Of a stretch of 44,963 bases of DNA, positions 899 through 8,891 are shown piece after piece. A program made the position numbers and the translations under genes. The notes under the pieces are model-generated. The model had not been told where the DNA came from. It saw only the letters and a program-made list of their open reading frames with translations, and searched no databases. Source of the stretch: a virus; IMG/VR virus record IMGVR_UViG_3300036846_000622, positions 1 through 44,963 of that record; one strand, 5' to 3'. Each line of letters begins with the position of its first letter. Position 1 is the first letter of the stretch.

Positions 899-988
899 AT
901 GCCTACGTCTCGACAATTCCGCACCGCGAACCGCTTCCTGCGCCTGTATTGGCGCGTGATGTATCGCATTCCCGCGTTCTATCGCTGA
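899..988 (+). CDS. Small basic protein, unknown (29 aa)
   Basis: First possible gene of the early rightward operon. The start follows a good ribosome site (GAGGTGA, 887-893) that belongs to the same repeated leader used by the next genes. The peptide starts MPTSRQFRTANRFLRLYWRV and is rich in Arg and aromatic residues. Its stop lies 15 bp before the next start. Function unknown. Its reality rests on the leader and position. Confidence 0.5.
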   Translation: MPTSRQFRTANRFLRLYWRVMYRIPAFYR

Positions 989-1003
989 CAGGAGCACGCG
1001 ACC

Positions 1004-1201
1004 ATGACCAAGAAAGAAGCACGGGCCCGCAACGAAGCTTATCGTCAAGCGCTGACTGAGGGTCGCGTAGTTCGTTACAATCAAGGCTGTTCATTCCGCA
1101 GTTTCAAGACTGTTGAACAAGCCTGCGCCTTTATTCAGCAAATTAAAACTTTCGTTCCCGAGGCTGATGCCGAGCGCATTTTCCACGATGCCAACGAATG
1201 A
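1004..1201 (+). CDS. Early small protein, unknown (65 aa)
   Basis: 65 residues, basic N-terminus (MTKKEARARNEAYRQALTEG), no membrane segment. The ribosome site is AGGAG just upstream (990-994). The TGA stop (1199-1201) lies one base before hammerhead ribozyme 1, so self-cleavage would leave this message with the ribozyme stem III hairpin at its 3' end. No family recognised. Early position suggests a host-interaction role, which is inference only. Confidence 0.75.
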   Translation: MTKKEARARNEAYRQALTEGRVVRYNQGCSFRSFKTVEQACAFIQQIKTFVPEADAERIFHDANE

Positions 1202-1202
1202 A

Positions 1203-1254
1203 GGACGAAACCCGCGCCAGCGGGTCTAGCGGTTAAGCCGCTACTGACGAGTCC
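1203..1254 (+). ncRNA. Type II hammerhead ribozyme 1
   Basis: Parts in order: stem II 3' strand GGAC (1203-1206); GAAA core (1207-1210); stem III CCCGC/GCGGG with loop GCCA (1211-1224); GUC cleavage site ending at 1226; stem I TAGCGG/CCGCTA with loop TTAAG (1227-1243); CUGACGA core (1244-1250); stem II 5' strand GUCC (1251-1254). All core bases of the hammerhead consensus are present. The permutation, with ends in stem II, defines type II. Predicted cut is after 1226. Confidence 0.93.
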
Positions 1255-1277
1255 AACATCAACCCTGAGGTGAGACT

Positions 1278-1613
1278 ATGAAACGCAAATATACCCAAGC
1301 CGAACGCGCGCAATTCCAAGTTGAGGCGCTTTCGCGCGCCGAGACCGGGCAATCGTTTGCGAATTATCCGGCGATCTATGAAGGCTTCACGGCACGCGGC
1401 ATTGCCGAGAGCGAAATTGAGCCGCGCGTCAACGTGTTCACTTACGCGGCCTGGCAGGCAAAGGGCCGACAGGTCCGGCGCGGCGAGAAAGGCGTCAAAA
1501 TTGTAACTTTCATTGTGACCGACGACGAGGGCGAAACCCGCAAATTCGCGCACACCTCCGTCGTGTTTCACGTCTCACAAACCGACGCAATCGAGGCCAA
1601 GCGCGCGGCCTAG
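1278..1613 (+). CDS. ArdC-like ssDNA-binding domain protein
   Basis: 111 residues. The segment around residues 50-75 (NVFTYAAWQAKGRQVRRGEK) resembles the N-terminal ssDNA-binding domain of ArdC-type antirestriction proteins. The C-terminal metalloprotease domain of full ArdC is absent. Such proteins protect incoming DNA, which would fit an early gene. The ribosome site GAGGTGA (1267-1273) lies 12 bases past ribozyme 1. The TAG stop donates its G (1613) to stem II of ribozyme 2. Family call from motif memory, moderate. Confidence 0.65.
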   Translation: MKRKYTQAERAQFQVEALSRAETGQSFANYPAIYEGFTARGIAESEIEPRVNVFTYAAWQAKGRQVRRGEKGVKIVTFIVTDDEGETRKFAHTSVVFHVSQTDAIEAKRAA

Positions 1614-1666
1614 AGCGAAACGCGGGGCGACCCGCGTCCCGGTGTAATGCGCCGGCTGATGAGCTC
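1613..1666 (+). ncRNA. Type II hammerhead ribozyme 2
   Basis: Stem II GAGC (1613-1616) pairs with GCTC (1663-1666), a covarying change from GGAC/GTCC in the other copies. GAAA 1617-1620; stem III CGCGGG/CCCGCG with a GCGA tetraloop (1621-1636); GUC ending 1638; stem I CCGGTG/CGCCGG, loop TAATG (1639-1655); CUGAUGA 1656-1662. Cut expected after 1638. Its first base is the last base of the upstream TAG stop. Confidence 0.93.
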
Positions 1667-1694
1667 AGACAAACCCTAACCCTGAGGTGAAACC

Positions 1695-1874
1695 ATGACC
1701 CGCCAACACTTCAAAGCACTTGCCGAGGCCCTCAAATTCGAGCGTCCGGGCGCAAATTGGGATCCGAACAAGCGCGTCCAATGGGAGCAGGATTGCAAGG
1801 CTATTGCTGACGTTTGCAATCGCTTTAACGGCGGTTTCAAGCGCGAGCGATTCCTCGAGGCCTGCGGCATGTAG
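1695..1874 (+). CDS. Early small protein, unknown (59 aa)
   Basis: 59 residues beginning MTRQHFKALAEALKFERPGA, with a repeated-leader ribosome site GAGGTGA upstream (1684-1690). Mostly helical, with two Cys near the middle and end. Similar short proteins occur in phages and prophages of alphaproteobacteria, to my recollection, without known function. It lies between ribozymes 2 and 3. The last base of its TAG stop (1874) is the first base of ribozyme 3. Confidence 0.75.
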   Translation: MTRQHFKALAEALKFERPGANWDPNKRVQWEQDCKAIADVCNRFNGGFKRERFLEACGM

Positions 1875-1932
1875 GACGAAACGCGGGCCCGCGCGGCCCG
1901 TGTCTGCCGGTATCGCCGGCACTGATGAGTCC
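1874..1932 (+). ncRNA. Type II hammerhead ribozyme 3
   Basis: Stem II GGAC (1874-1877) with GTCC (1929-1932); GAAA 1878-1881; an 8-bp stem III (1882-1889 with 1895-1902, one G-U pair) and loop CGCGC; GUC ending 1904; stem I TGCCGG/CCGGCA with loop TATCG (1905-1921); CUGAUGA 1922-1928. Stem III differs in length and sequence from the other copies but still pairs. Cut expected after 1904. Confidence 0.93.
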
Positions 1933-1954
1933 AACTCTAACCCGAGGTGAAACC

Positions 1955-2047
1955 ATGCTTTCCGATCCGACTGAGGTAATTTGGACAACCGCCGTGACGT
2001 TGTTCGCGAGCATTTTCGTCATGCTTGTTCTCGCGGGAGTGCTCTGA
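1955..2047 (+). CDS. Single-span membrane peptide (30 aa)
   Basis: 30 residues: short polar head (MLSDPTEVI), then one hydrophobic helix to the C-terminus. The start follows the repeated leader (CGAGGTGAAACC). The TGA (2045-2047) lies two bases before the next ATG, so translation is probably coupled. This is the one ribozyme-bounded unit with two genes. Function unknown; an inner-membrane peptide. Confidence 0.65.
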   Translation: MLSDPTEVIWTTAVTLFASIFVMLVLAGVL

Positions 2048-2049
2048 CC

Positions 2050-2394
2050 ATGACGCACGATCCGACGCGCGATGAAATGCTTGAGTATCTTTGCGCACAA
2101 CCGTTCGCGGGCGAGGCCGACGACTTTGACCGCGAGCAGGCTATCTATTGGTTCGCCGCGCACTATCACGGCGGCCAATGGTCAAATCTTTACGCCGCGC
2201 TGTGCGCGTCCGAGTACAGCCCCGGCAATCTCGAATGCGAACCACACCCCGACAGTATCGGCGCCGACCTGTACGCCGACCTTGTGGCGTGGTTCGCGCC
2301 CGCGACGGCGCCGGCACCAAGCGGCGAGACACCGCCGGCAAAAGCCGATTTCGGTATGCACCCGATGGTCCGCTACACCTTCGGCCGCTCCTAA
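2050..2394 (+). CDS. Early protein, unknown (114 aa)
   Basis: 114 residues, acidic, with a central segment rich in aromatic residues (about residues 30-65, FDREQAIYWFAAHYHGGQW) and a Pro/Ala-rich stretch near residue 90. ATG 2050 is preferred over upstream in-frame codons because it directly follows the 30-residue gene. The TAA stop (2392-2394) touches the first base of ribozyme 4. No function recognised. Confidence 0.75.
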   Translation: MTHDPTRDEMLEYLCAQPFAGEADDFDREQAIYWFAAHYHGGQWSNLYAALCASEYSPGNLECEPHPDSIGADLYADLVAWFAPATAPAPSGETPPAKADFGMHPMVRYTFGRS

Positions 2395-2450
2395 GGACGA
2401 AACGCGGGGTAACGCCCGCGTCCGAGCGTATCGCGCTCGCTGACGAGTCC
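2395..2450 (+). ncRNA. Type II hammerhead ribozyme 4
   Basis: Stem II GGAC (2395-2398) with GTCC (2447-2450); GAAA 2399-2402; stem III CGCGGG/CCCGCG (2403-2420, loop GTAACG); GUC ending 2422; stem I CGAGCG/CGCTCG with loop TATCG (2423-2439); CUGACGA 2440-2446. The core is complete. Stem I is again 6 bp with a 5-base loop, as in all four copies. Cut expected after 2422. Confidence 0.93.
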
Positions 2451-2478
2451 AGCCGCACTCAACAACTCGAGGTGACTA

Positions 2479-2643
2479 ATGCAACGCACAGCATTACGCA
2501 AAATGCTGATAATCATCGGACTTTGGCTGGTCTTATTCACGCTTCCGGTCTTGTTGTGGCTGGTCATCAACCAAAACGACAACCCGCCGAGCCTTCCAAG
2601 TTCGATCATAAAGAAAGCCACAGACTCGAGTCCGATGAATTGA
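2479..2643 (+). CDS. Small membrane protein (54 aa)
   Basis: 54 residues: basic N-terminus (MQRTALRKM), a long hydrophobic helix at about residues 9-30, then a polar Pro/Ser/Lys tail. Ribosome site CGAGGTGA (2468-2475) from the repeated leader. TGA ends 9 bp before the next ATG. No ribozyme follows. Predicted single-span inner-membrane protein of unknown role. Confidence 0.7.
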   Translation: MQRTALRKMLIIIGLWLVLFTLPVLLWLVINQNDNPPSLPSSIIKKATDSSPMN

Positions 2644-2651
2644 GGTTGAAC

Positions 2652-2837
2652 ATGCGCGCGAATAAATACACCAGGCGCGTTAAGGCGCTTGGTTATACGC
2701 CCTACGCGATCGCGCCGATCTTAGCGGTATCGGTGCGGCAATCGTTACGCTATGCCGCCGGCACCGACTTGCCGGGGACGGTAGATCGACTCCTCGAAAT
2801 GCTCGAGCGATACGGCATTCCCGAGGAGTGGAAATGA
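2652..2837 (+). CDS. Small basic protein, unknown (61 aa)
   Basis: 61 residues starting MRANKYTRRVKALGYTPYAI, with basic N-terminus and C-terminal helix (about residues 42-58). ATG 2652 follows GAGGTTGA, a variant of the early leader. The small basic fold with VSVRQSLRYAAG could be an HTH, but this is weak. Next gene begins 38 bp later. Confidence 0.65.
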   Translation: MRANKYTRRVKALGYTPYAIAPILAVSVRQSLRYAAGTDLPGTVDRLLEMLERYGIPEEWK

Positions 2838-2875
2838 GACCTTCCGATATGGTAATATCAACGCGAGGTGAAACC

Positions 2876-3076
2876 ATGACCGACACTAACTTTCCGAGCC
2901 AGCAGCAGGAGCAGCGCGCGAAATGGGACTTGCTCTTGCTTGACATCGAAACCCGAACCGAACAGGTCCGGCAGCTAAAAACCTATGAACCCTGGCGCCT
3001 AGTGTTTGCCGGATTGACATCTGGCGCCGCAATTCTCGCCGTGGGCGTTGCCATAGGCCATTGGATCGTTGGATGA
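2876..3076 (+). CDS. Small membrane protein with coiled-coil head (66 aa)
   Basis: 66 residues: polar helical head (about 8-37, with EQRAKWDLLLLDIETRTEQ) and one transmembrane helix (about 43-63). ATG 2876 is favoured over upstream in-frame ATGs because of the leader GCGAGGTGA. Last gene of the early operon, 24 bp before the terminator. Short proteins of this layout recur in phages as hypothetical proteins. Confidence 0.72.
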   Translation: MTDTNFPSQQQEQRAKWDLLLLDIETRTEQVRQLKTYEPWRLVFAGLTSGAAILAVGVAIGHWIVG

Positions 3077-3100
3077 GCATGATCTCGTTAAGTGAATGAG

Positions 3101-3126
3101 AAAGGGCCCCGCTAGGGCCCTTTTTT
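3101..3126 (+). terminator. Rho-independent terminator of early operon
   Basis: Nine-bp stem AAAGGGCCC/GGGCCCTTT (3101-3109, 3115-3123), loop CGCTA, and a T6 run (3121-3126). It closes the rightward early transcript. The reverse strand also has a hairpin followed by T and C bases, so it may help the opposing operon. Confidence 0.9.
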
Positions 3127-3275
3127 ATGTGCGGGTTATCGTCCTTGCCACCAACTAAGCCCCGAACGTCACAGGAGGCGCCCGGGTTAGGGCCCGATGA
3201 GAACGACTTTCTGAGAGAGAGCGACTCCCGCACTAACCGCCCTGAGGTGAGGGCCCTCGCTTCACCCGGGGAGCT
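3127..3275. other. Gap between convergent early operons
   Basis: No convincing gene. It holds GC-rich inverted repeats, including the perfect palindrome GAGGGCCCTC inside GGTGA...TCACC (about 3246-3266). It also holds a stray copy of the early leader (CCCTGAGGTGAGG, near 3240-3252) not followed by a start codon, perhaps a relic of a lost cassette. Confidence 0.5.
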
Positions 3276-3707
3276 TTATTCGGCTTTACGCCATCGCGCA
3301 ATCGCCGCGCGCCGCGCATTAAGACTCCGCGCCGCCGCCGTGGTTTTGAGCATTTGCACAGCCGATATTTCGCGGGCATTTTCACAGGAAAATAGCCAAG
3401 GGGCGCGAACCATGCTCCCCATCGGGCGCACCTGATGCGCCGAGCGTTTTTTGAGTCGGCGCCGGATCCTAGCAAATGCCCCCGGATCCTCCTCCAAAAC
3501 CAGCTTACAACCCATAACTCCGAGCAAAGCGCCCAAGCTAATGGGCCCAACCGCCTTCATGCATTTGGGCGCGAGCAGTTTTGAAACGTAACCGGCCGGC
3601 AATCCGCAGAGCTCATCAAGATTAAGCCGCGACACCTCGAGCGCATCGGCGCGCCGTCGCAGCGCGGCATGTAGATCGCGATAATCGCGTATCTCAGCGA
3701 GTGACAC
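3276..3707 (-). CDS. HTH-like DNA-binding protein, last gene of leftward operon
   Basis: 143 residues. Residues about 8-60 (LHAALRRRADALEVSRLNLD through ...AGYVSKLLAP) look like a Cro/C1-type helix-turn-helix with recognition helix AGYVSKLLA. The C-terminus is very basic and low in complexity. It starts 6 bp after the gene at 3714-4106, at the 3' end of the minus operon led by 7105. Probably a transcription regulator; target unknown. Confidence 0.65.
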   Translation of the reverse strand: MSLAEIRDYRDLHAALRRRADALEVSRLNLDELCGLPAGYVSKLLAPKCMKAVGPISLGALLGVMGCKLVLEEDPGAFARIRRRLKKRSAHQVRPMGSMVRAPWLFSCENAREISAVQMLKTTAAARSLNARRAAIARWRKAE

Positions 3708-3713
3708 GCGGCC

Positions 3714-4106
3714 TCACAAGGCTTGCATGAAGTCCTCGTCTCCAATCACTATCAGAACCGGGCCGACAAGGAAATCATGGCGTAACTGTGCGCCGTCTCT
3801 TGCCAACGCTTCCGCCCAAAGCTGTGTCGCCCGCTCATTCACCGGCAACCCGGCGAGCTTGCCGCCTTCATCGCAGAACGCCACGCAGGGATGGAACTCG
3901 CCGCCGAACTCAAAACTATCAAAATGCGGCACCATTTCGAGATAGCCGCCGCCGAGCGCCGCGCGCAATTCGCGCAACGTCGCCGGCCGCCGGTAAGGCG
4001 TCATCAACGCCGTTCCGTTCACACTCAGCACTATTAGGGCACCGTGCATTTCCAGCCCGTGACTGACCAACAAAACTAACCCTCTGCCTCTAGGAAGCCC
4101 GCCCAT
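3714..4106 (-). CDS. DUF3846-like protein
   Basis: 130 residues from ATG 4106 (GGAG upstream), or 111 from an internal ATG at 4049. The C-terminal half (about 60-128: CVAFCDEGGKLAGLPVNERA, then FLVGPVLIVIGDEDF) matches the pattern of the DUF3846 family, common in phages and plasmids, function unknown. It begins 5 bp after the upstream stop. Confidence 0.7.
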   Translation of the reverse strand: MGGLPRGRGLVLLVSHGLEMHGALIVLSVNGTALMTPYRRPATLRELRAALGGGYLEMVPHFDSFEFGGEFHPCVAFCDEGGKLAGLPVNERATQLWAEALARDGAQLRHDFLVGPVLIVIGDEDFMQAL

Positions 4107-4111
4107 GCGTT

Positions 4112-4732
4112 TTAAGGCTCCGAGCCTTGTCCCGCATCGTCCGAATCGTTTTGTGAGCCCCCTAGCTGATTTTTGGCCGCCTCGCGACGCCCTAATAGTC
4201 GCAGCAGGCTAGGCGAGACCGGCGAATCCTTGGGAATCCCGGCCGCACGGCATTCCCGCGCCCACAAAACCTCATTCGCCCGGTCAATCCGCTCGCCAAC
4301 CGCGCGCCGCCGCCGCGTTTGCTCATCGTCCGCATCGAGGCCGAACGTCTCGCCAAACTTGCGCTTGAGCTCCTCGACCGTGGGCCGAGACCGCCGCTCG
4401 AGCTCGAGGCGATCCGCCGCCGCCCGATCCTCGAGCACCAGGCGCGCCGCCGCCGCTTGCCGTTCGCCGGTCTCGACCACCCGGCGCCAGCCCGCCGTCT
4501 CGCGCTCGCACCATTCGATCACCAGCGCCGGCGAGGGCAGATACTCAGACTCGCGCGCCACCCCGCGCAACGGATCCGCGATCCGCTCAACAATCGCTTT
4601 GGGGTAGAGTTGGAGCACCGCGACCAGGCCGCCGATATAGGTTTTGCTGCCTTTGCTGAGACTAGGCGGATAAAGCCCGATCAGATTGCCAACGAGCTCC
4701 GTGGCAATCTCAGGCGACACCCTTTCGCTCAT
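4112..4732 (-). CDS. Putative replication-associated protein
   Basis: 206 residues from ATG 4732; an ATG at 4816 would add 28 residues of low complexity that overlap the upstream gene out of frame. The N-terminal part (about 1-85) is helical with LIGLYPPSLSKGSKTYIGGL. The centre and C-terminus are charged coiled-coil (RQAAAARLVLEDRAAADRLE) ending in a basic tail. By position after a replication-like gene it may be a helicase loader or primosomal partner, which is inference. Confidence 0.55.
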   Translation of the reverse strand: MSERVSPEIATELVGNLIGLYPPSLSKGSKTYIGGLVAVLQLYPKAIVERIADPLRGVARESEYLPSPALVIEWCERETAGWRRVVETGERQAAAARLVLEDRAAADRLELERRSRPTVEELKRKFGETFGLDADDEQTRRRRAVGERIDRANEVLWARECRAAGIPKDSPVSPSLLRLLGRREAAKNQLGGSQNDSDDAGQGSEP

Positions 4733-5351
4733 CAACCGGGAGGCCGAGGGCACGTTTGCGCTCTCGGATTTCGTCGGCCATTTGGTAAGCAAGCTCCGCG
4801 CCGGAAGCTTTTCCATTGCGTCGATTTCCGTTTACCAAAGCGGATATGTAGGCAATCGGCTCCGCTACGTCAGCATCCCTGGCATATTGGATGAGGGCCA
4901 GCAAACCATCGGCATCATCGTGGGTTTGTTTCAGCCAATGGCCGAGTAGGCTGCCGGTGCGCTTTTCCGCTATGCCAAACGTGACAAGCAGCAGCTTACC
5001 AATACGGTATAGCTTTGCGCGAGTATCTTCATCGACTGGCTCCCCGATTTCCACAGGCTTAGGCTCATCAAAAAATCCGGGCTCGCGCTTCGACTGAGGA
5101 ATCTTCTTAGATTCCGAAGGAGAAGAGTTTTCTTTAGGGGGTGTGGGGGGGATTTCTTTTGTGTCACGCATGTCACGCTGCAACTGCGTGACGCCATCAC
5201 GCGCCGCTACGTTACGCGCTCGTTGTTTTTGTTGGCGAATGCGGCTTTGCTCCCGCACCCGTGCACGTCGCTCCTGTTCCTCGAGCTCCAATAGCCGGAC
5301 GATTTGAGAATCGCTCATGCCGGCCGCCCTTAGGGTTGCAATGCTAATCAT
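4710..5351 (-). CDS. Putative replication protein
   Basis: 213 residues. N-terminus has a helix and a very basic Arg/Gln segment (about 18-48), then a disordered Pro/Ser/Lys linker (68-90). A C-terminal helical domain (about 105-210) includes LLVTFGIAEKRTGSLLGHWL and AYISALVNG. Linker plus C-terminal domain recalls phage DnaD/DnaT-like replication initiators, but no key motif proves it. ATGA overlap with the gene at 5348-5680. Confidence 0.5.
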   Translation of the reverse strand: MISIATLRAAGMSDSQIVRLLELEEQERRARVREQSRIRQQKQRARNVAARDGVTQLQRDMRDTKEIPPTPPKENSSPSESKKIPQSKREPGFFDEPKPVEIGEPVDEDTRAKLYRIGKLLLVTFGIAEKRTGSLLGHWLKQTHDDADGLLALIQYARDADVAEPIAYISALVNGNRRNGKASGAELAYQMADEIRERKRALGLPVDERKGVA

Positions 5352-5680
5352 CGCGACGCCACCCGCAGCAAGTCGCGCCGAGCAAACCGAGGCACCAGCC
5401 GATAAGGAGCGCCGTTATAGCTGCGGCTGATTTGCCAATCGGTATCGACCAGCAGGAAATTCAACGCATGAATGTGAACCGAAACCGTAGAGTAACCTTT
5501 CGGCGCCGGCACTCGAGCCGCGAACACCGCCGCATAAAGCGCTGGCCGCGTCATTCCGTTTTCGCCGGATCGTTTGATCGCGTCGAAAATCTTGGTCTGC
5601 AGCGGTGTTAAGGCTATCCCAAGCCGAATGTTTTTCGGCATCGGTTGATGGCAGTACGGACAATGTTCGGGCCCGCGCAT
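5348..5680 (-). CDS. Winged-helix protein with N-terminal CPYC knuckle
   Basis: 110 residues. Starts with a short zinc-knuckle-like CPYCHQP (residues 7-13) and continues as a winged-helix-like fold (about 22-90: LTPLQTKIFDAIKRSGENGM ... STVSVHIHALNFLL). Likely binds DNA. TAATG coupling with the upstream nuclease gene and ATGA with the downstream one suggest balanced co-translation. Confidence 0.65.
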   Translation of the reverse strand: MRGPEHCPYCHQPMPKNIRLGIALTPLQTKIFDAIKRSGENGMTRPALYAAVFAARVPAPKGYSTVSVHIHALNFLLVDTDWQISRSYNGAPYRLVPRFARRDLLRVASR

Positions 5681-6138
5681 TAGGAAACCTCATGAAAAAT
5701 CCTGAACTGCGGCCATTGAAAACTCGCCGCTTGCTCGCGATCCCCGCTATCTCCGCGATCGTCGCGCCCCCAATTTTCAACGATTGAATGCTCGAGCGTC
5801 ACATCAAGATATGCGATTGTGCCGCAACCAAACCGCACCACAATCAGCACCGGCACACGAACGATTGAGTGAAGCGTCTGCAATTCAACAACCTTGCGCC
5901 GTCCGATTCTAAAAAATGGGCACTCACCAAAGGCGTATGTGCTGGTCTTGATTTCAAAAAATGCGACGACGTTCCCGCGATATAACAGCCGGTCAACACG
6001 CGATTTTTCTAAGTCGTTTGGATCTGATCCGATCTTTAACTCGTTGGCATGGGCCCAGGTCGCAAAAGCACTAGCAACTTCTTGCTCCGCAACAGCATGT
6101 TGTTCCGTCCGATAAGTCTGCCGAGGTAACGCACTCAC
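5680..6138 (-). CDS. PD-(D/E)XK-like nuclease
   Basis: 152 residues from a GTG start (6138) that overlaps the upstream stop (GTGA) and has AGGGA upstream. The core VDRLLYRGNVVAFFEIKTS (about residues 48-66) has the spaced Asp and E-x-K of the PD-(D/E)XK nuclease fold. Could process recombination or replication intermediates or attack host DNA. It directly follows a VRR-NUC nuclease. Confidence 0.65.
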   Translation of the reverse strand: MSALPRQTYRTEQHAVAEQEVASAFATWAHANELKIGSDPNDLEKSRVDRLLYRGNVVAFFEIKTSTYAFGECPFFRIGRRKVVELQTLHSIVRVPVLIVVRFGCGTIAYLDVTLEHSIVENWGRDDRGDSGDREQAASFQWPQFRIFHEVS

Positions 6139-6533
6139 GACACTTTCCCTCGCAGCAAGTTGAGGTGTTCCAAGACGGCGAGCGCCTTATCCAATCCGTA
6201 GACGACGCAAGCAAACCCGCCGGCAGCATTCACCTCATCGACGAACTTGAGTTGATCCTCAGTCGGCCGGCCATCGGCAGCCTTGAGCTCGACCGCATGG
6301 AATATCCCGAGCGGTCCAAACCCGCAGCGCGGACACGTTGAAGGTTTCACCGCGCAGATGTCAGAGACGCCGGCACGCACGCCCAGGCCTTTGAGGATCG
6401 AAGCCTCGATAGGTCGCCGCGCGCCACCGTTAGGGGAATGCCACGGGATAACGCCCGGTGCTCCCCGGATCTTGAAGTGCTGAAAAACCGCCCGCTGGAT
6501 CTGATCCTCAGGACGCGCCCGCCGTCGCCTCAT
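6135..6533 (-). CDS. VRR-NUC domain nuclease
   Basis: 132 residues. Pattern: Q-x-A-V-x-Q-H near residues 13-20, GVRAGVSDICAV (about 50-62), a CPRC insertion (68-71) and HAVELKAADGRPTEDQ (79-94) with the E-x-K. This is the virus-type replication-repair nuclease (VRR-NUC), a PD-(D/E)XK branch acting on DNA junctions. The usual PD is SD here. GTGA overlap with the next nuclease. Confidence 0.8.
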   Translation of the reverse strand: MRRRRARPEDQIQRAVFQHFKIRGAPGVIPWHSPNGGARRPIEASILKGLGVRAGVSDICAVKPSTCPRCGFGPLGIFHAVELKAADGRPTEDQLKFVDEVNAAGGFACVVYGLDKALAVLEHLNLLRGKVS

Positions 6534-6891
6534 GATCTGATCCGAAATCGCGTGCTAACGAGGCTTCTCCGAGCGGCGTATCGCGCAGCGCACCAAGCAA
6601 ACCGCAAGCATGGGCATAGCTATCGACGGTGTGCTCGAAACGCTGTTTGTCCTCGATCTTGTCGCGCCGTCGCATTTCGTCAAAGGCTTTCATATCGAAG
6701 CCTTTCTCGCGCATCTCGCCGCGCATCTCGGCGCGCTCGAAACTAATCTCGGCGCGTTGCTCATCAAAATGATTGTGCGCCAGCATGTACGAGCGCAACT
6801 GTGTTGCTTCGCTTTTGTTGAGCGCGCTGTTGTGTCCGATCTTAGCTTCCTCTATCGCATCAAGTAGAGGCTCGCGTTTGCGTCTCGCCAT
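6508..6891 (-). CDS. GapR/DUF2312-like DNA-binding protein
   Basis: 127 residues. An IGHNS motif (residues 18-22) comes before a coiled-coil stretch and GFDMKAFDEMRRRDK (about 64-78). This resembles the DUF2312/GapR family of alphaproteobacteria, whose members bind AT-rich or overtwisted DNA, and phage relatives. Good AAAGG ribosome site. It overlaps both neighbours. Family call is from motif memory. Confidence 0.6.
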   Translation of the reverse strand: MARRKREPLLDAIEEAKIGHNSALNKSEATQLRSYMLAHNHFDEQRAEISFERAEMRGEMREKGFDMKAFDEMRRRDKIEDKQRFEHTVDSYAHACGLLGALRDTPLGEASLARDFGSDHEATAGAS

Positions 6892-7105
6892 TTGATTTAA
6901 CCTTTCGTTGTTTGACCCCGAGGAGCTCCGCGACGGAGATCCCCGTTAGATTGGCAAGCCGGCGCAAAATTTTACCGCGCGGGAAACGGTCGCGGCTTTC
7001 CCACCGCGATACCGTTGCCTCTTTGACCCCGATTTTCTTGGCGAGCTCGAGTTGAGAGAGATCGTTGCGCTCGCGCCAAATTCTAAGGGGATGTCTCGCC
7101 GGCAT
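6860..7105 (-). CDS. Cro-like HTH regulator
   Basis: 81 residues. Classic HTH_3 domain (about 5-62): LSQLELAKKIGVKEATVSRW, then ...ELLGV. Divergent from the regulator at 7272 and first gene of the leftward operon, the position of Cro in lambda-like switches. The half-conserved operator at 7142-7156 lies between its start and a possible -35 (TTGACG, 7163-7158). Confidence 0.85.
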   Translation of the reverse strand: MPARHPLRIWRERNDLSQLELAKKIGVKEATVSRWESRDRFPRGKILRRLANLTGISVAELLGVKQRKVKSNGETQTRAST

Positions 7106-7271
7106 GTTGTGCTCTGCGGTTTGAGTGCCGACGATCTTGGATTACCGAAACGGAGAGCGTCAAATTTGCCGGCCATGCGACAAAAAACTTGGGGTCTATA
7201 CCTTTTGATGTAGGTCAAACGCCCCCGCCGCATGATACAGTTACCCATTCGGTAATGCTGCGAGGGTCAAA
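7106..7271. promoter_or_regulatory. Divergent lysogeny control region
   Basis: 166 bp between the two HTH regulator genes. It holds a full TTACC-N5-GGTAA palindrome (7241-7255), a near copy TTACC-GAAAC-GGAGA (7142-7156), the 9-bp inverted pair ATTACCGAA (7141-7149) / TTCGGTAAT (7248-7256), and a TTGA-N6-TCAA palindrome (7205-7218) like an FNR/FixK box. Promoter hexamers are weak and not assigned. Confidence 0.65.
7241..7255. promoter_or_regulatory. Operator-like palindrome TTACC-N5-GGTAA
   Basis: TTACC-CATTC-GGTAA, 16 bp before the ATG of the CI-like gene, so it lies in or near its leader and could serve autoregulation. Identical half sites and spacing to 755-769. Confidence 0.6.
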
Positions 7272-7655
7272 ATGGCACGCACGGGCAAGGCGTTGGCACG
7301 GACTCGCATATCTGTTGCACCAGCGAATGAAACGCCGATTTATCGCCTCTATATTGACGAACACCTGAAAGCAAAGGGTTGGACTGACGCCGAGGCCGCC
7401 GATATTTTCGGCGTTGCCTATGCCACAATGTACCGATGGCGCAAGATGCAACGCCAGCTAGACGCGGAGAAAATCGCGCGATTTGCGGAGGTTATGGGCA
7501 TTAGACCCGAGGAGCTTTGGGCGCCGCCGGTCGAGAAGAAACCTTACCATATCGTCAACATGCTCGAGGCCTTGGACGACGATTCCAAAATCTTAGTCAT
7601 CAAACTAATTCAGCAGCTTTATACGATTAACGCATTGAAAAAAGGGCAAAAATAG
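7272..7655 (+). CDS. CI-like HTH regulator
   Basis: 127 residues. HTH domain at about 22-80, with EAADIFGVAYATMYRWRKMQ as turn and recognition helix, then PEELWAPP. The C-terminal tail (about 88-120) is a short helix, LEALDDDSKILVIKLIQQLY, probably for oligomerisation. There is no S24 peptidase domain, so induction would not use RecA-driven self-cleavage. Divergent from the Cro-like gene; likely lysogeny repressor. Confidence 0.75.
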   Translation: MARTGKALARTRISVAPANETPIYRLYIDEHLKAKGWTDAEAADIFGVAYATMYRWRKMQRQLDAEKIARFAEVMGIRPEELWAPPVEKKPYHIVNMLEALDDDSKILVIKLIQQLYTINALKKGQK

Positions 7656-7801
7656 CGGTGATTAAGTTGACATAGTTTTTGCCTATACCTACCTACCGCT
7701 ACGTGGTTATACACAGCTATATTTGACGTATCGGAAAGGCCCTATTAGGCTCAATAGGAGCCTTAAACACCCTGTTAGTACCGCGTTTCCGGTGACCGCA
7801 T
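7656..7801. promoter_or_regulatory. Leader region before recombination operon
   Basis: 146 bp with no gene. Contains a TTGACA hexamer (7668-7673), a DnaA-box consensus TTATACACA (7707-7715), and two mutually exclusive hairpins: CCTATT/AATAGG (7741-7758) and AGGCTC/GAGCCT (7747-7763). It ends with GGTGA before ATG 7802. Confidence 0.5.
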
Positions 7802-7990
7802 ATGGCGGATCCGTGTTCTGATACCCCTCTAGAAATTTTGGCGCGCATTGCCGCGCGACTTGCTGCAATACAAGTCGATCTGACGGTGTTGCATCAAAAG
7901 ACACAGCAAGAAATCCAACAACTAGAAAATACCTCAGGCCCGAGGGAGCGACACAATGGGAACGATGACCCGTGTAGGGTTTTATCGTGA
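7802..7990 (+). CDS. Small helical protein, unknown (62 aa)
   Basis: 62 residues with an amphipathic helix (about 8-45: LEILARIAARLAAIQVDLTV ... QQEIQQLEN). GGTGA lies just before the ATG. Its 3' end overlaps the exonuclease gene by 35 bp in another frame. Possibly an accessory of the recombination genes; unconfirmed. Confidence 0.5.
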   Translation: MADPCSDTPLEILARIAARLAAIQVDLTVLHQKTQQEIQQLENTSGPRERHNGNDDPCRVLS

Positions 7991-8891
7991 CATCGACCCC
8001 GAAACTTACCACGCGGATCCCGCCCCACTGCCCTCTCTATCGCAGGGCATCGCAAAGCTACTGATCCACAACTCGCCCCTGCACGCTTGGACTTGCCACC
8101 CGCGCCTCAACCCGGACTTCCTGCCCGACTCTGATAAGAAATTCGATCTTGGCAATGCCGCGCACAAACTACTCATCGGCGCCGGCAAGAATATCGCGGT
8201 GCTCGAGTTTGAGGACTACCGCACCAACAAAGCCAAAGACGCTCGAGACGCCGCGATAGCAGAAGGCAAGACCCCTATCCTTGGGCATCAATACGCTCGA
8301 GCAAACCGCATGGTCGAAGCGGGACGCGAGCAGATCGCAATCCGCTATGAGAACCTCCACCGCGCCAGAATTTTCGATCCCGATATAGGTGCCGGCGAGG
8401 TGGTCATGTTGTGGAAGGACGGCGAGACTTGGGCGCGCCAAATGCTCGATTGGCTCTCGGACGATCACCTGATTTATGCCGATTACAAGACCACAGCGGA
8501 ATCGGCCGCGCCGCACACACTCGGCCGAAAGATGTCCACCGATGGATGGCATATCCAAGCCGCGATGGCCGAACGTGGATTGAACATCTTGGACGCAAGC
8601 TTACCGTCACGCCATTACTTCTTTGTCGTTCAGGAAATCGAGGCCCCCTATGCTTTATCAATCGCGGAGCTCGATGAGAACGCGCTTGTTCTAGGCCGCA
8701 AGCAGCTTGCCTATGCTTTCGCACTTTGGGAGGCGTGTCAGAAGAACAATCTTTGGCCGGGGTATCCGCTCGATACGGTCTATCCGGTCATCCCGCCCTG
8801 GTTTGAATCCGAATGGCTTAGTCGCGAGATCCATTTTGCGGCAAGCAATCGCATCAGCGGTAACGGCGGCATGGTGACAGAGTTAGGGTGA
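7956..8891 (+). CDS. RecE-like PD-(D/E)XK exonuclease
   Basis: 311 residues. The N-terminus (YHADPAPLPSLSQGIAKLLI, about 18-37) and GNAAHKLL (66-73) are typical of the phage exodeoxyribonuclease VIII-like family. Active-site pattern: E148, D164, then D176-x-K178 in ADYKT. Expected to degrade one strand of duplex ends for single-strand annealing. GAGGGAG ribosome site; a second ATG is at 7965. GTGA overlap with the next gene. Confidence 0.85.
   Translation: MGTMTRVGFYRDIDPETYHADPAPLPSLSQGIAKLLIHNSPLHAWTCHPRLNPDFLPDSDKKFDLGNAAHKLLIGAGKNIAVLEFEDYRTNKAKDARDAAIAEGKTPILGHQYARANRMVEAGREQIAIRYENLHRARIFDPDIGAGEVVMLWKDGETWARQMLDWLSDDHLIYADYKTTAESAAPHTLGRKMSTDGWHIQAAMAERGLNILDASLPSRHYFFVVQEIEAPYALSIAELDENALVLGRKQLAYAFALWEACQKNNLWPGYPLDTVYPVIPPWFESEWLSREIHFAASNRISGNGGMVTELG

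Follow-up and report, generated by a model that had tools for sequence, protein, structure and literature searches.

The window, by which we mean the whole stretch of DNA that was analysed, is an entire IMG/VR virus record of 44,963 bases. Its PHROG matches (head-tail connector, terminase, major head protein, internal virion protein, exonuclease VIII and integrase) point to a temperate podovirus-like phage. Microcystis phage Mwe-JY08 has a connector 42% identical to the one encoded here, and for positions 900-8000 no DNA similarity to annotated phages was found. The plus strand carries eight small ORFs, together with a strong hairpin terminator, at positions 1004-3128, and we predict that the eight ORFs constitute one operon. 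Neither ORF1 (1004-1201; 65 aa) nor ORF3 (1695-1874; 59 aa) has a family match. ORF2 (1278-1613; 111 aa) matches part of the ArdC N-terminal domain (PF08401, 25.6 bits with a cut-off of 22.6; phrog_7245), and its predicted product is a short stand-alone relative of this anti-restriction protein. The match is confined to profile positions 66-100 of 123, and a protease part is lacking. ORF4 (1955-2047; 30 aa) is hydrophobic, and ORF5 (2050-2394; 114 aa) has homologues in four viral contigs. They are followed by ORF6 (2479-2643; 54 aa, with a hydrophobic N-terminal part), ORF7 (2652-2837; 61 aa) and ORF8 (2876-3076; 66 aa, with a hydrophobic C-terminal part). The likely intrinsic terminator at 3096-3128, GGGCCC-CGCUA-GGGCCC plus U6 (-21.7 kcal/mol, z -5.4), is absent from the matches of a consensus scan, probably because A-U pairs consume the U run. 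A promoter scan did no better than shuffles and yielded no good promoter; the TTGACA noticed by eye at 834-839 lacks a good second hexamer, and we do not claim it as a promoter. No defence families were found among the operon proteins, and no relatives of ORF2 were confirmed in viral contigs. Adjoining the operon, a 161-aa ORF on the minus strand (101-586) resembles a terminase small subunit on visual inspection and has no Pfam or PHROG match. An earlier reading of the DNA, made from the sequence only, had spoken of early phage genes. A run of small phage genes is indeed what we see, and the word "early" draws only on gene type and orientation.

Hammerheads are found at four of the seven ORF junctions, the other three being 2 nt, 8 nt and a 38-nt leader. 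The sequence-only reading had described four complete type II hammerheads on one strand, and all four are present on the plus strand, at 1203-1254 (HH1), 1613-1666 (HH2), 1874-1932 (HH3) and 2395-2450 (HH4). They share the same order of parts: stem II 5' strand, GAAA, stem III, the G-UC cut site, stem I, CUGANGA and stem II 3' strand. Every core base is found in each of them, and the GUC triplets end at 1226, 1638, 1904 and 2422, after which cleavage is predicted. Inspection of the sequence bears out the stem dimensions as well. Stem I is 17 nt long, with 6 bp and a 5-nt loop (UUAAG, UAAUG, UAUCG and UAUCG in HH1-HH4). Stem II has 4 bp and covaries, its 5' strands being GGAC, GAGC, GGAC and GGAC and its 3' strands GUCC, GCUC, GUCC and GUCC, and stem III varies from 5 to 8 bp. 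All four sites thus have the attributes of the hammerhead class, namely CUGANGA, GAAA, an NUH triplet and three joining stems, and the architecture is that of type II, stem II being open and stems I and III being closed by loops. The type II identity is further upheld by the folds of the isolated cores, for each of which the hammerhead is the minimum-energy structure, and by a covariance model made from relatives. When 30-nt flanks are included, the minimum-energy folds retain stems I and III and the stem II strands re-pair elsewhere, so that folding may need co-transcriptional order or ribosome-free mRNA. A descriptor matched four times in the window and not once in ~1.1 Mb of shuffled sequence; the four-hammerhead set is not a chance occurrence.

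The custom covariance model was built from 24 relatives with HH2 as the sole member from the window, and the other three window hammerheads lie outside its training set. Run on both strands of the 45-kb record, it recovered the four sites with 61 to 69 bits and E-values from 1.6e-19 to 4.6e-17 (HH1, 62.8 bits, E 1.6e-17; HH2, 69.1 bits; HH3, 61.3 bits, E 4.6e-17; HH4, 64.9 bits, E 3.4e-18). It found no further hammerheads on either strand of the 45 kb, the next match having an E-value of 1.2. With the Rfam model Hammerhead_II (RF02276), nothing in the window reaches the gathering cut-off of 37 bits. At a permissive threshold HH2 (29.0 bits) and HH3 (29.5 bits) align over the full length of the model, and HH1 and HH4 give no match. 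The array is thus not detectable with Rfam in the way that the sequence-only reading had supposed. That reading had also said beforehand that it should be abandoned if no covariance-model hit exceeded threshold, and with the public Rfam model this is, taken literally, the outcome. The miss likely reflects the pseudoknotted subtype underlying that model rather than an absence of hammerheads. The Rfam model appears weak on the window sites because they belong to a compact subclass, which has a 4-bp stem II, a 6-bp stem I with a 5-nt loop and no multi-pair pseudoknot. Only three of the 88 hammerheads in 15 related loci pass the Rfam cut-off, all three with a long stem I (21-23 nt), and the array in one contig (L084) mixes pseudoknotted units that pass with compact units that fail.

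To what extent the compact fold is maintained can be judged from pattern scans of viral contigs. Each pattern consisted of the core, one stem II sequence and a 17-nt spacer, and pairing within stem I was not required. The GGAC/GUCC and GGUC/GACC patterns each occur in at least 120 stretches of viral contigs and GAGC/GCUC in 73, compared with a single stretch for the mismatched pattern GGAC/GACC. Matched patterns being abundant and mismatched ones nearly absent, the scans indicate that stem II must pair. All six stem I pairs are formed in 165 of the 167 distinct GGAC/GUCC sites among the matches listed, compared with 3.0 of 6 pairs for shuffled stem I partners. Pairing of stem I is likewise full in 132 of 133 and 42 of 42 sites among the matches listed for two further stem II sets. 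An alignment of the 24 relatives has 99.5% of its cells paired and both sides changed in 13 of 16 pairs, but as these relatives were picked by a descriptor that requires pairing, the pattern scans provide the cleaner evidence. That 4 bp and 17 nt dominate is partly due to selection of sites, as the patterns fix stem I at 17 nt and stem II in each scan; this geometry is nevertheless shared by most of the 86 hammerheads lying beside the first pattern's matches, stem I being 17 nt in 50 and 18 nt in 23.

Loop I shows a further kind of conservation. Of 211 distinct sites among the matches listed, 207 have U as loop base 1 together with A at -1, immediately ahead of stem II, and in each of the four exceptions both bases are changed. 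Later scans gave the same combination in 171 of 173 sites listed, the two exceptions again being changed at both positions. Loop base 5 is in turn coupled to +1, the first base after stem II, with G-A, U-A and A-U combinations. Because the scans contain several sites per contig, the coupling was tested with one site per contig, which gave p ~0.003 and, in the later set, p 0.001, each of them the floor of the test. Pairing of loop I with the 3' tail as a pseudoknot was considered for the compact class and rejected, the longest run being 2.27 versus 2.29 in shuffled sequence; in 15 other hammerheads, mostly with a longer stem I, the loop-tail run is 3.93 versus 3.08. A pseudoknot of at least four pairs, which is a majority feature in PMC3088659, is thus not a property of the compact set. 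What the compact class has in its place is the two putative single-base contacts, U1/A(-1) and loop base 5/+1. In type I and III hammerheads a conserved reverse Hoogsteen pair joins loops I and II (PMC6155905), and the U1-A(-1) contact resembles this pair in its presumed geometry. At the level of sequence comparison, core, stems and loop contacts are conserved over hundreds of viral contigs, which shows that the fold is under selection.

The hammerheads are placed between one stop codon and the next start. In the window, the TGA of ORF1 (1199-1201) lies one base upstream of HH1, with A(-1) at 1202. HH2 and HH3 share the G of the TAG codons of ORF2 (1611-1613) and ORF3 (1872-1874), and HH4 abuts the TAA of ORF5 (2392-2394). 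Elsewhere, with ORFs called by length and start codon rather than curated as genes and with counts taken from sites among the matches listed, the upstream stop falls within -6..+2 of stem II in 171 of 241 units, versus 4.8% at random same-strand positions; the later set gave 122 of 169. The two most frequent arrangements are an overlap of one base (UA-G of UAG) and direct abutment (UAA or UGA). In 213 of 235 units a start codon that has a ribosome site lies at most 90 nt downstream, the median distance being 23 nt. Four contigs (L062:7092-7110, L075:12476-12494, L088:5615-5633 and L105:1858-1876) also have in common TTGGCGAGTGTCCGACAAC and then AGCGAGGACGAA, slightly downstream of a GGUC/GACC hammerhead and ahead of the next start codon; this is a second, putative conserved leader element.

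It is tempting to link such a placement to translation. A terminating ribosome would cover stem II and GAAA and block the cut, and the ribozyme would act only when translation is sparse or finished, serving in effect as a sensor of translation. Consistent with this, overlap or abutment is the mode of stop placement, A(-1) is tied to loop U1 and the -1 base is A in 92 of 95 units with an abutting stop. It is also very rare for an upstream ORF to extend into the ribozyme, even though UGA stops are available in CUGAUGA. However, the same spacing would result from genome compaction together with the need for a stop 5' of the cut, by which non-stop mRNA is avoided. Moreover, A(-1) is retained when the stop is further upstream (139 of 146), and the pseudoknotted hammerheads of L084 likewise abut stops. 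Ribosomes might have some effect on cutting, but gating by translation seems to us rather unlikely. We are also doubtful of the more general proposal that a large unannotated subclass is built into stop codons, with the last A of the stop often being one of two bases that lock loop I, the terminating ribosome and the folded ribozyme being mutually exclusive, and cutting of the junction depending on upstream translation.

We consider it quite probable that the four compact type II hammerheads simply split the small-gene operon into five messages with separate fates. Cleavage itself we infer from the conservation described above, from established hammerhead chemistry and, by analogy, from published tests of similar arrays. 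Each hammerhead would fold once transcription has passed the 3' strand of stem II. This strand is made last and lies close to the next ribosome site, so that cutting would be co-transcriptional and local. A cut after GUC at each of the four junctions would release ORF1 on the piece that precedes the first cut, ORF2 as message 2, ORF3 as message 3, ORF4 together with ORF5 as message 4, and ORF6, ORF7 and ORF8, in this order, as message 5. The pieces between the cuts measure 412, 266 and 518 nt, and ~704 nt separate the last cut from the terminator. The upstream piece at each cut would end in the stem III hairpin directly past a stop codon, and the downstream piece would carry the stem I hairpin at its 5' end and then the ribosome site. 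Hammerhead cutting leaves a 2',3'-cyclic phosphate on the upstream piece and a 5'-OH on the downstream piece. The new ends would be poor substrates for both 5'-end-dependent and 3'-end decay, and cutting may in this way influence stability or expression. The likely gain would be separate fates for small genes that are transcribed together.

The same chemistry might also serve to make circular mRNA. Two cuts would leave each of the 412-, 266- and 518-nt segments with a 5'-OH and a 2',3'-cyclic phosphate, and an RtcB-type ligase or reverse hammerhead ligation could close it. Spliced or circular products were nevertheless sought and not detected by Perreault et al. (PMC3088659), and we regard circle formation as very improbable.

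Genes beside hammerheads are small, with a median of 101 aa. Linkage to a specific gene was considered and rejected: none of the ORF5 homologues in the four contigs lies beside a hammerhead, and 218 ORFs downstream of hammerheads fall in 182 clusters, mostly unrelated. Pfam and PHROG searches with 148 hammerhead-downstream ORFs revealed no dominant family, DUF932 being found in five and the ArdC N-terminal domain in two. Unrelated neighbours, and the modular nature of the sequence between ORFs, would fit a role of core and leader as blocks of DNA homology for the exchange of small-gene cassettes, ribozyme activity being incidental. Yet DNA homology needs neither compensating changes in three stems nor the coupling of U1 with A(-1) and of loop base 5 with +1, and the stem sequences diverge freely with pairing kept. 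Recombination joints appear to us highly unlikely.

The compact subclass is abundant in IMG/VR, in arrays of up to 12 per record. The notion in the sequence-only reading that type II hammerheads usually occur singly is contradicted by these related records and by the clusters in PMC3088659. Arrays are not a fixed feature of related phages, since no hammerhead occurs in the record of the nearest recovered phage relative, one of whose proteins is 62% identical, and the ORF5 homologues are without neighbouring hammerheads. Such coming and going between relatives could be expected of inactive relics of mobile ribozymes with no present function, but with the core intact in four of four and in hundreds of others, and with pairing as complete as in the alignment, this is scarcely credible. 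In one 125,690-base linear record (L003, G003), nine hammerheads lie on one strand at both ends (66-1166 and 121260-125606), as if one array spans the opening point of a circular or permuted genome. Three genome contigs labelled as Phycicoccus (L125), Streptomyces iakyrus (L126) and an Eggerthellaceae MAG (L137) contain the same hammerheads with identical flanks, one common to all three and three common to L125 and L126; at least some of these are therefore likely to stem from a contaminant or phage common to the records and not from the hosts.

For the role of hammerheads in phages, the array in the window offers a clean test bed, with four predicted cuts, a short operon and defined junctions, in which a conserved one-base contact could be disrupted and then repaired while the proteins change hardly or not at all. 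Hammerheads of the compact subclass are frequent in viral sequence and score below the Rfam cut-off, so phage ribozymes are probably undercounted, and many phage transcripts may be cut at gene junctions without annotation revealing it.

The idea of a processing array is not new. Perreault et al. described type II hammerheads in 2011, clustered beside single genes or short blocks in prophages of Clostridium scindens, Azorhizobium caulinodans and Agrobacterium tumefaciens, and already proposed the same operon-processing hypothesis (PMC3088659). Three tandem arrangements were cleaved in vitro and one in E. coli, and many hammerheads were without a pseudoknot, perhaps using other contacts (PMC3088659). 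Of the RNA-processing operon put forward in the sequence-only reading, the ribozyme at each of four junctions stands, and cleavage would give five messages with hairpins near the new ends, whereas its novelty was overstated in view of that work. In the open-access literature, the supplementary alignments of PMC3088659 aside, we found neither the compact subclass as a unit with two coupled single-base contacts nor its abundance below the Rfam cut-off and fusion to stop codons. Both the subclass itself and this fusion may provisionally be considered new.

As in the window, the published clusters place several hammerheads on one phage strand around single genes or short blocks, and an anti-restriction gene is present in both cases (ardA there, the ArdC N-terminal-like ORF2 here). 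In their consensus, loop I and the 3' tail of stem II form a pseudoknot, whereas the window set combines a 4-bp stem II with a constant 17-nt stem I and putative contacts of single bases. Cleavage has been demonstrated for those clusters (PMC3088659), and for the window set it is predicted. The Rfam Hammerhead_II model agrees with the window set in topology, core and type II opening, with all four window sites under its gathering score. An array of four to five type II hammerheads, four of them above the Rfam cut-off, is also found at L171:3189-6102 (minus strand), in a phage contig that encodes an ORF5 homologue with 63% identity. Like the window array, it consists of tandem hammerheads on one strand, but they are of the pseudoknotted type II subtype and do not lie beside the ORF5 homologue. 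The type III hammerhead of sTRSV satellite RNA has a 6-bp stem I, a 4-bp stem II (GUCC/GGAC), a U in loop I and an A beside stem II. Its likeness to the window hammerheads in stem lengths, stem II sequence and the loop I U with its A may be taken as a lead only. In the sTRSV hammerhead it is stem III that is open and stem II that is closed, whereas in the window stem II is open and, unlike in sTRSV, the partner A belongs to the upstream mRNA, often to its stop codon.
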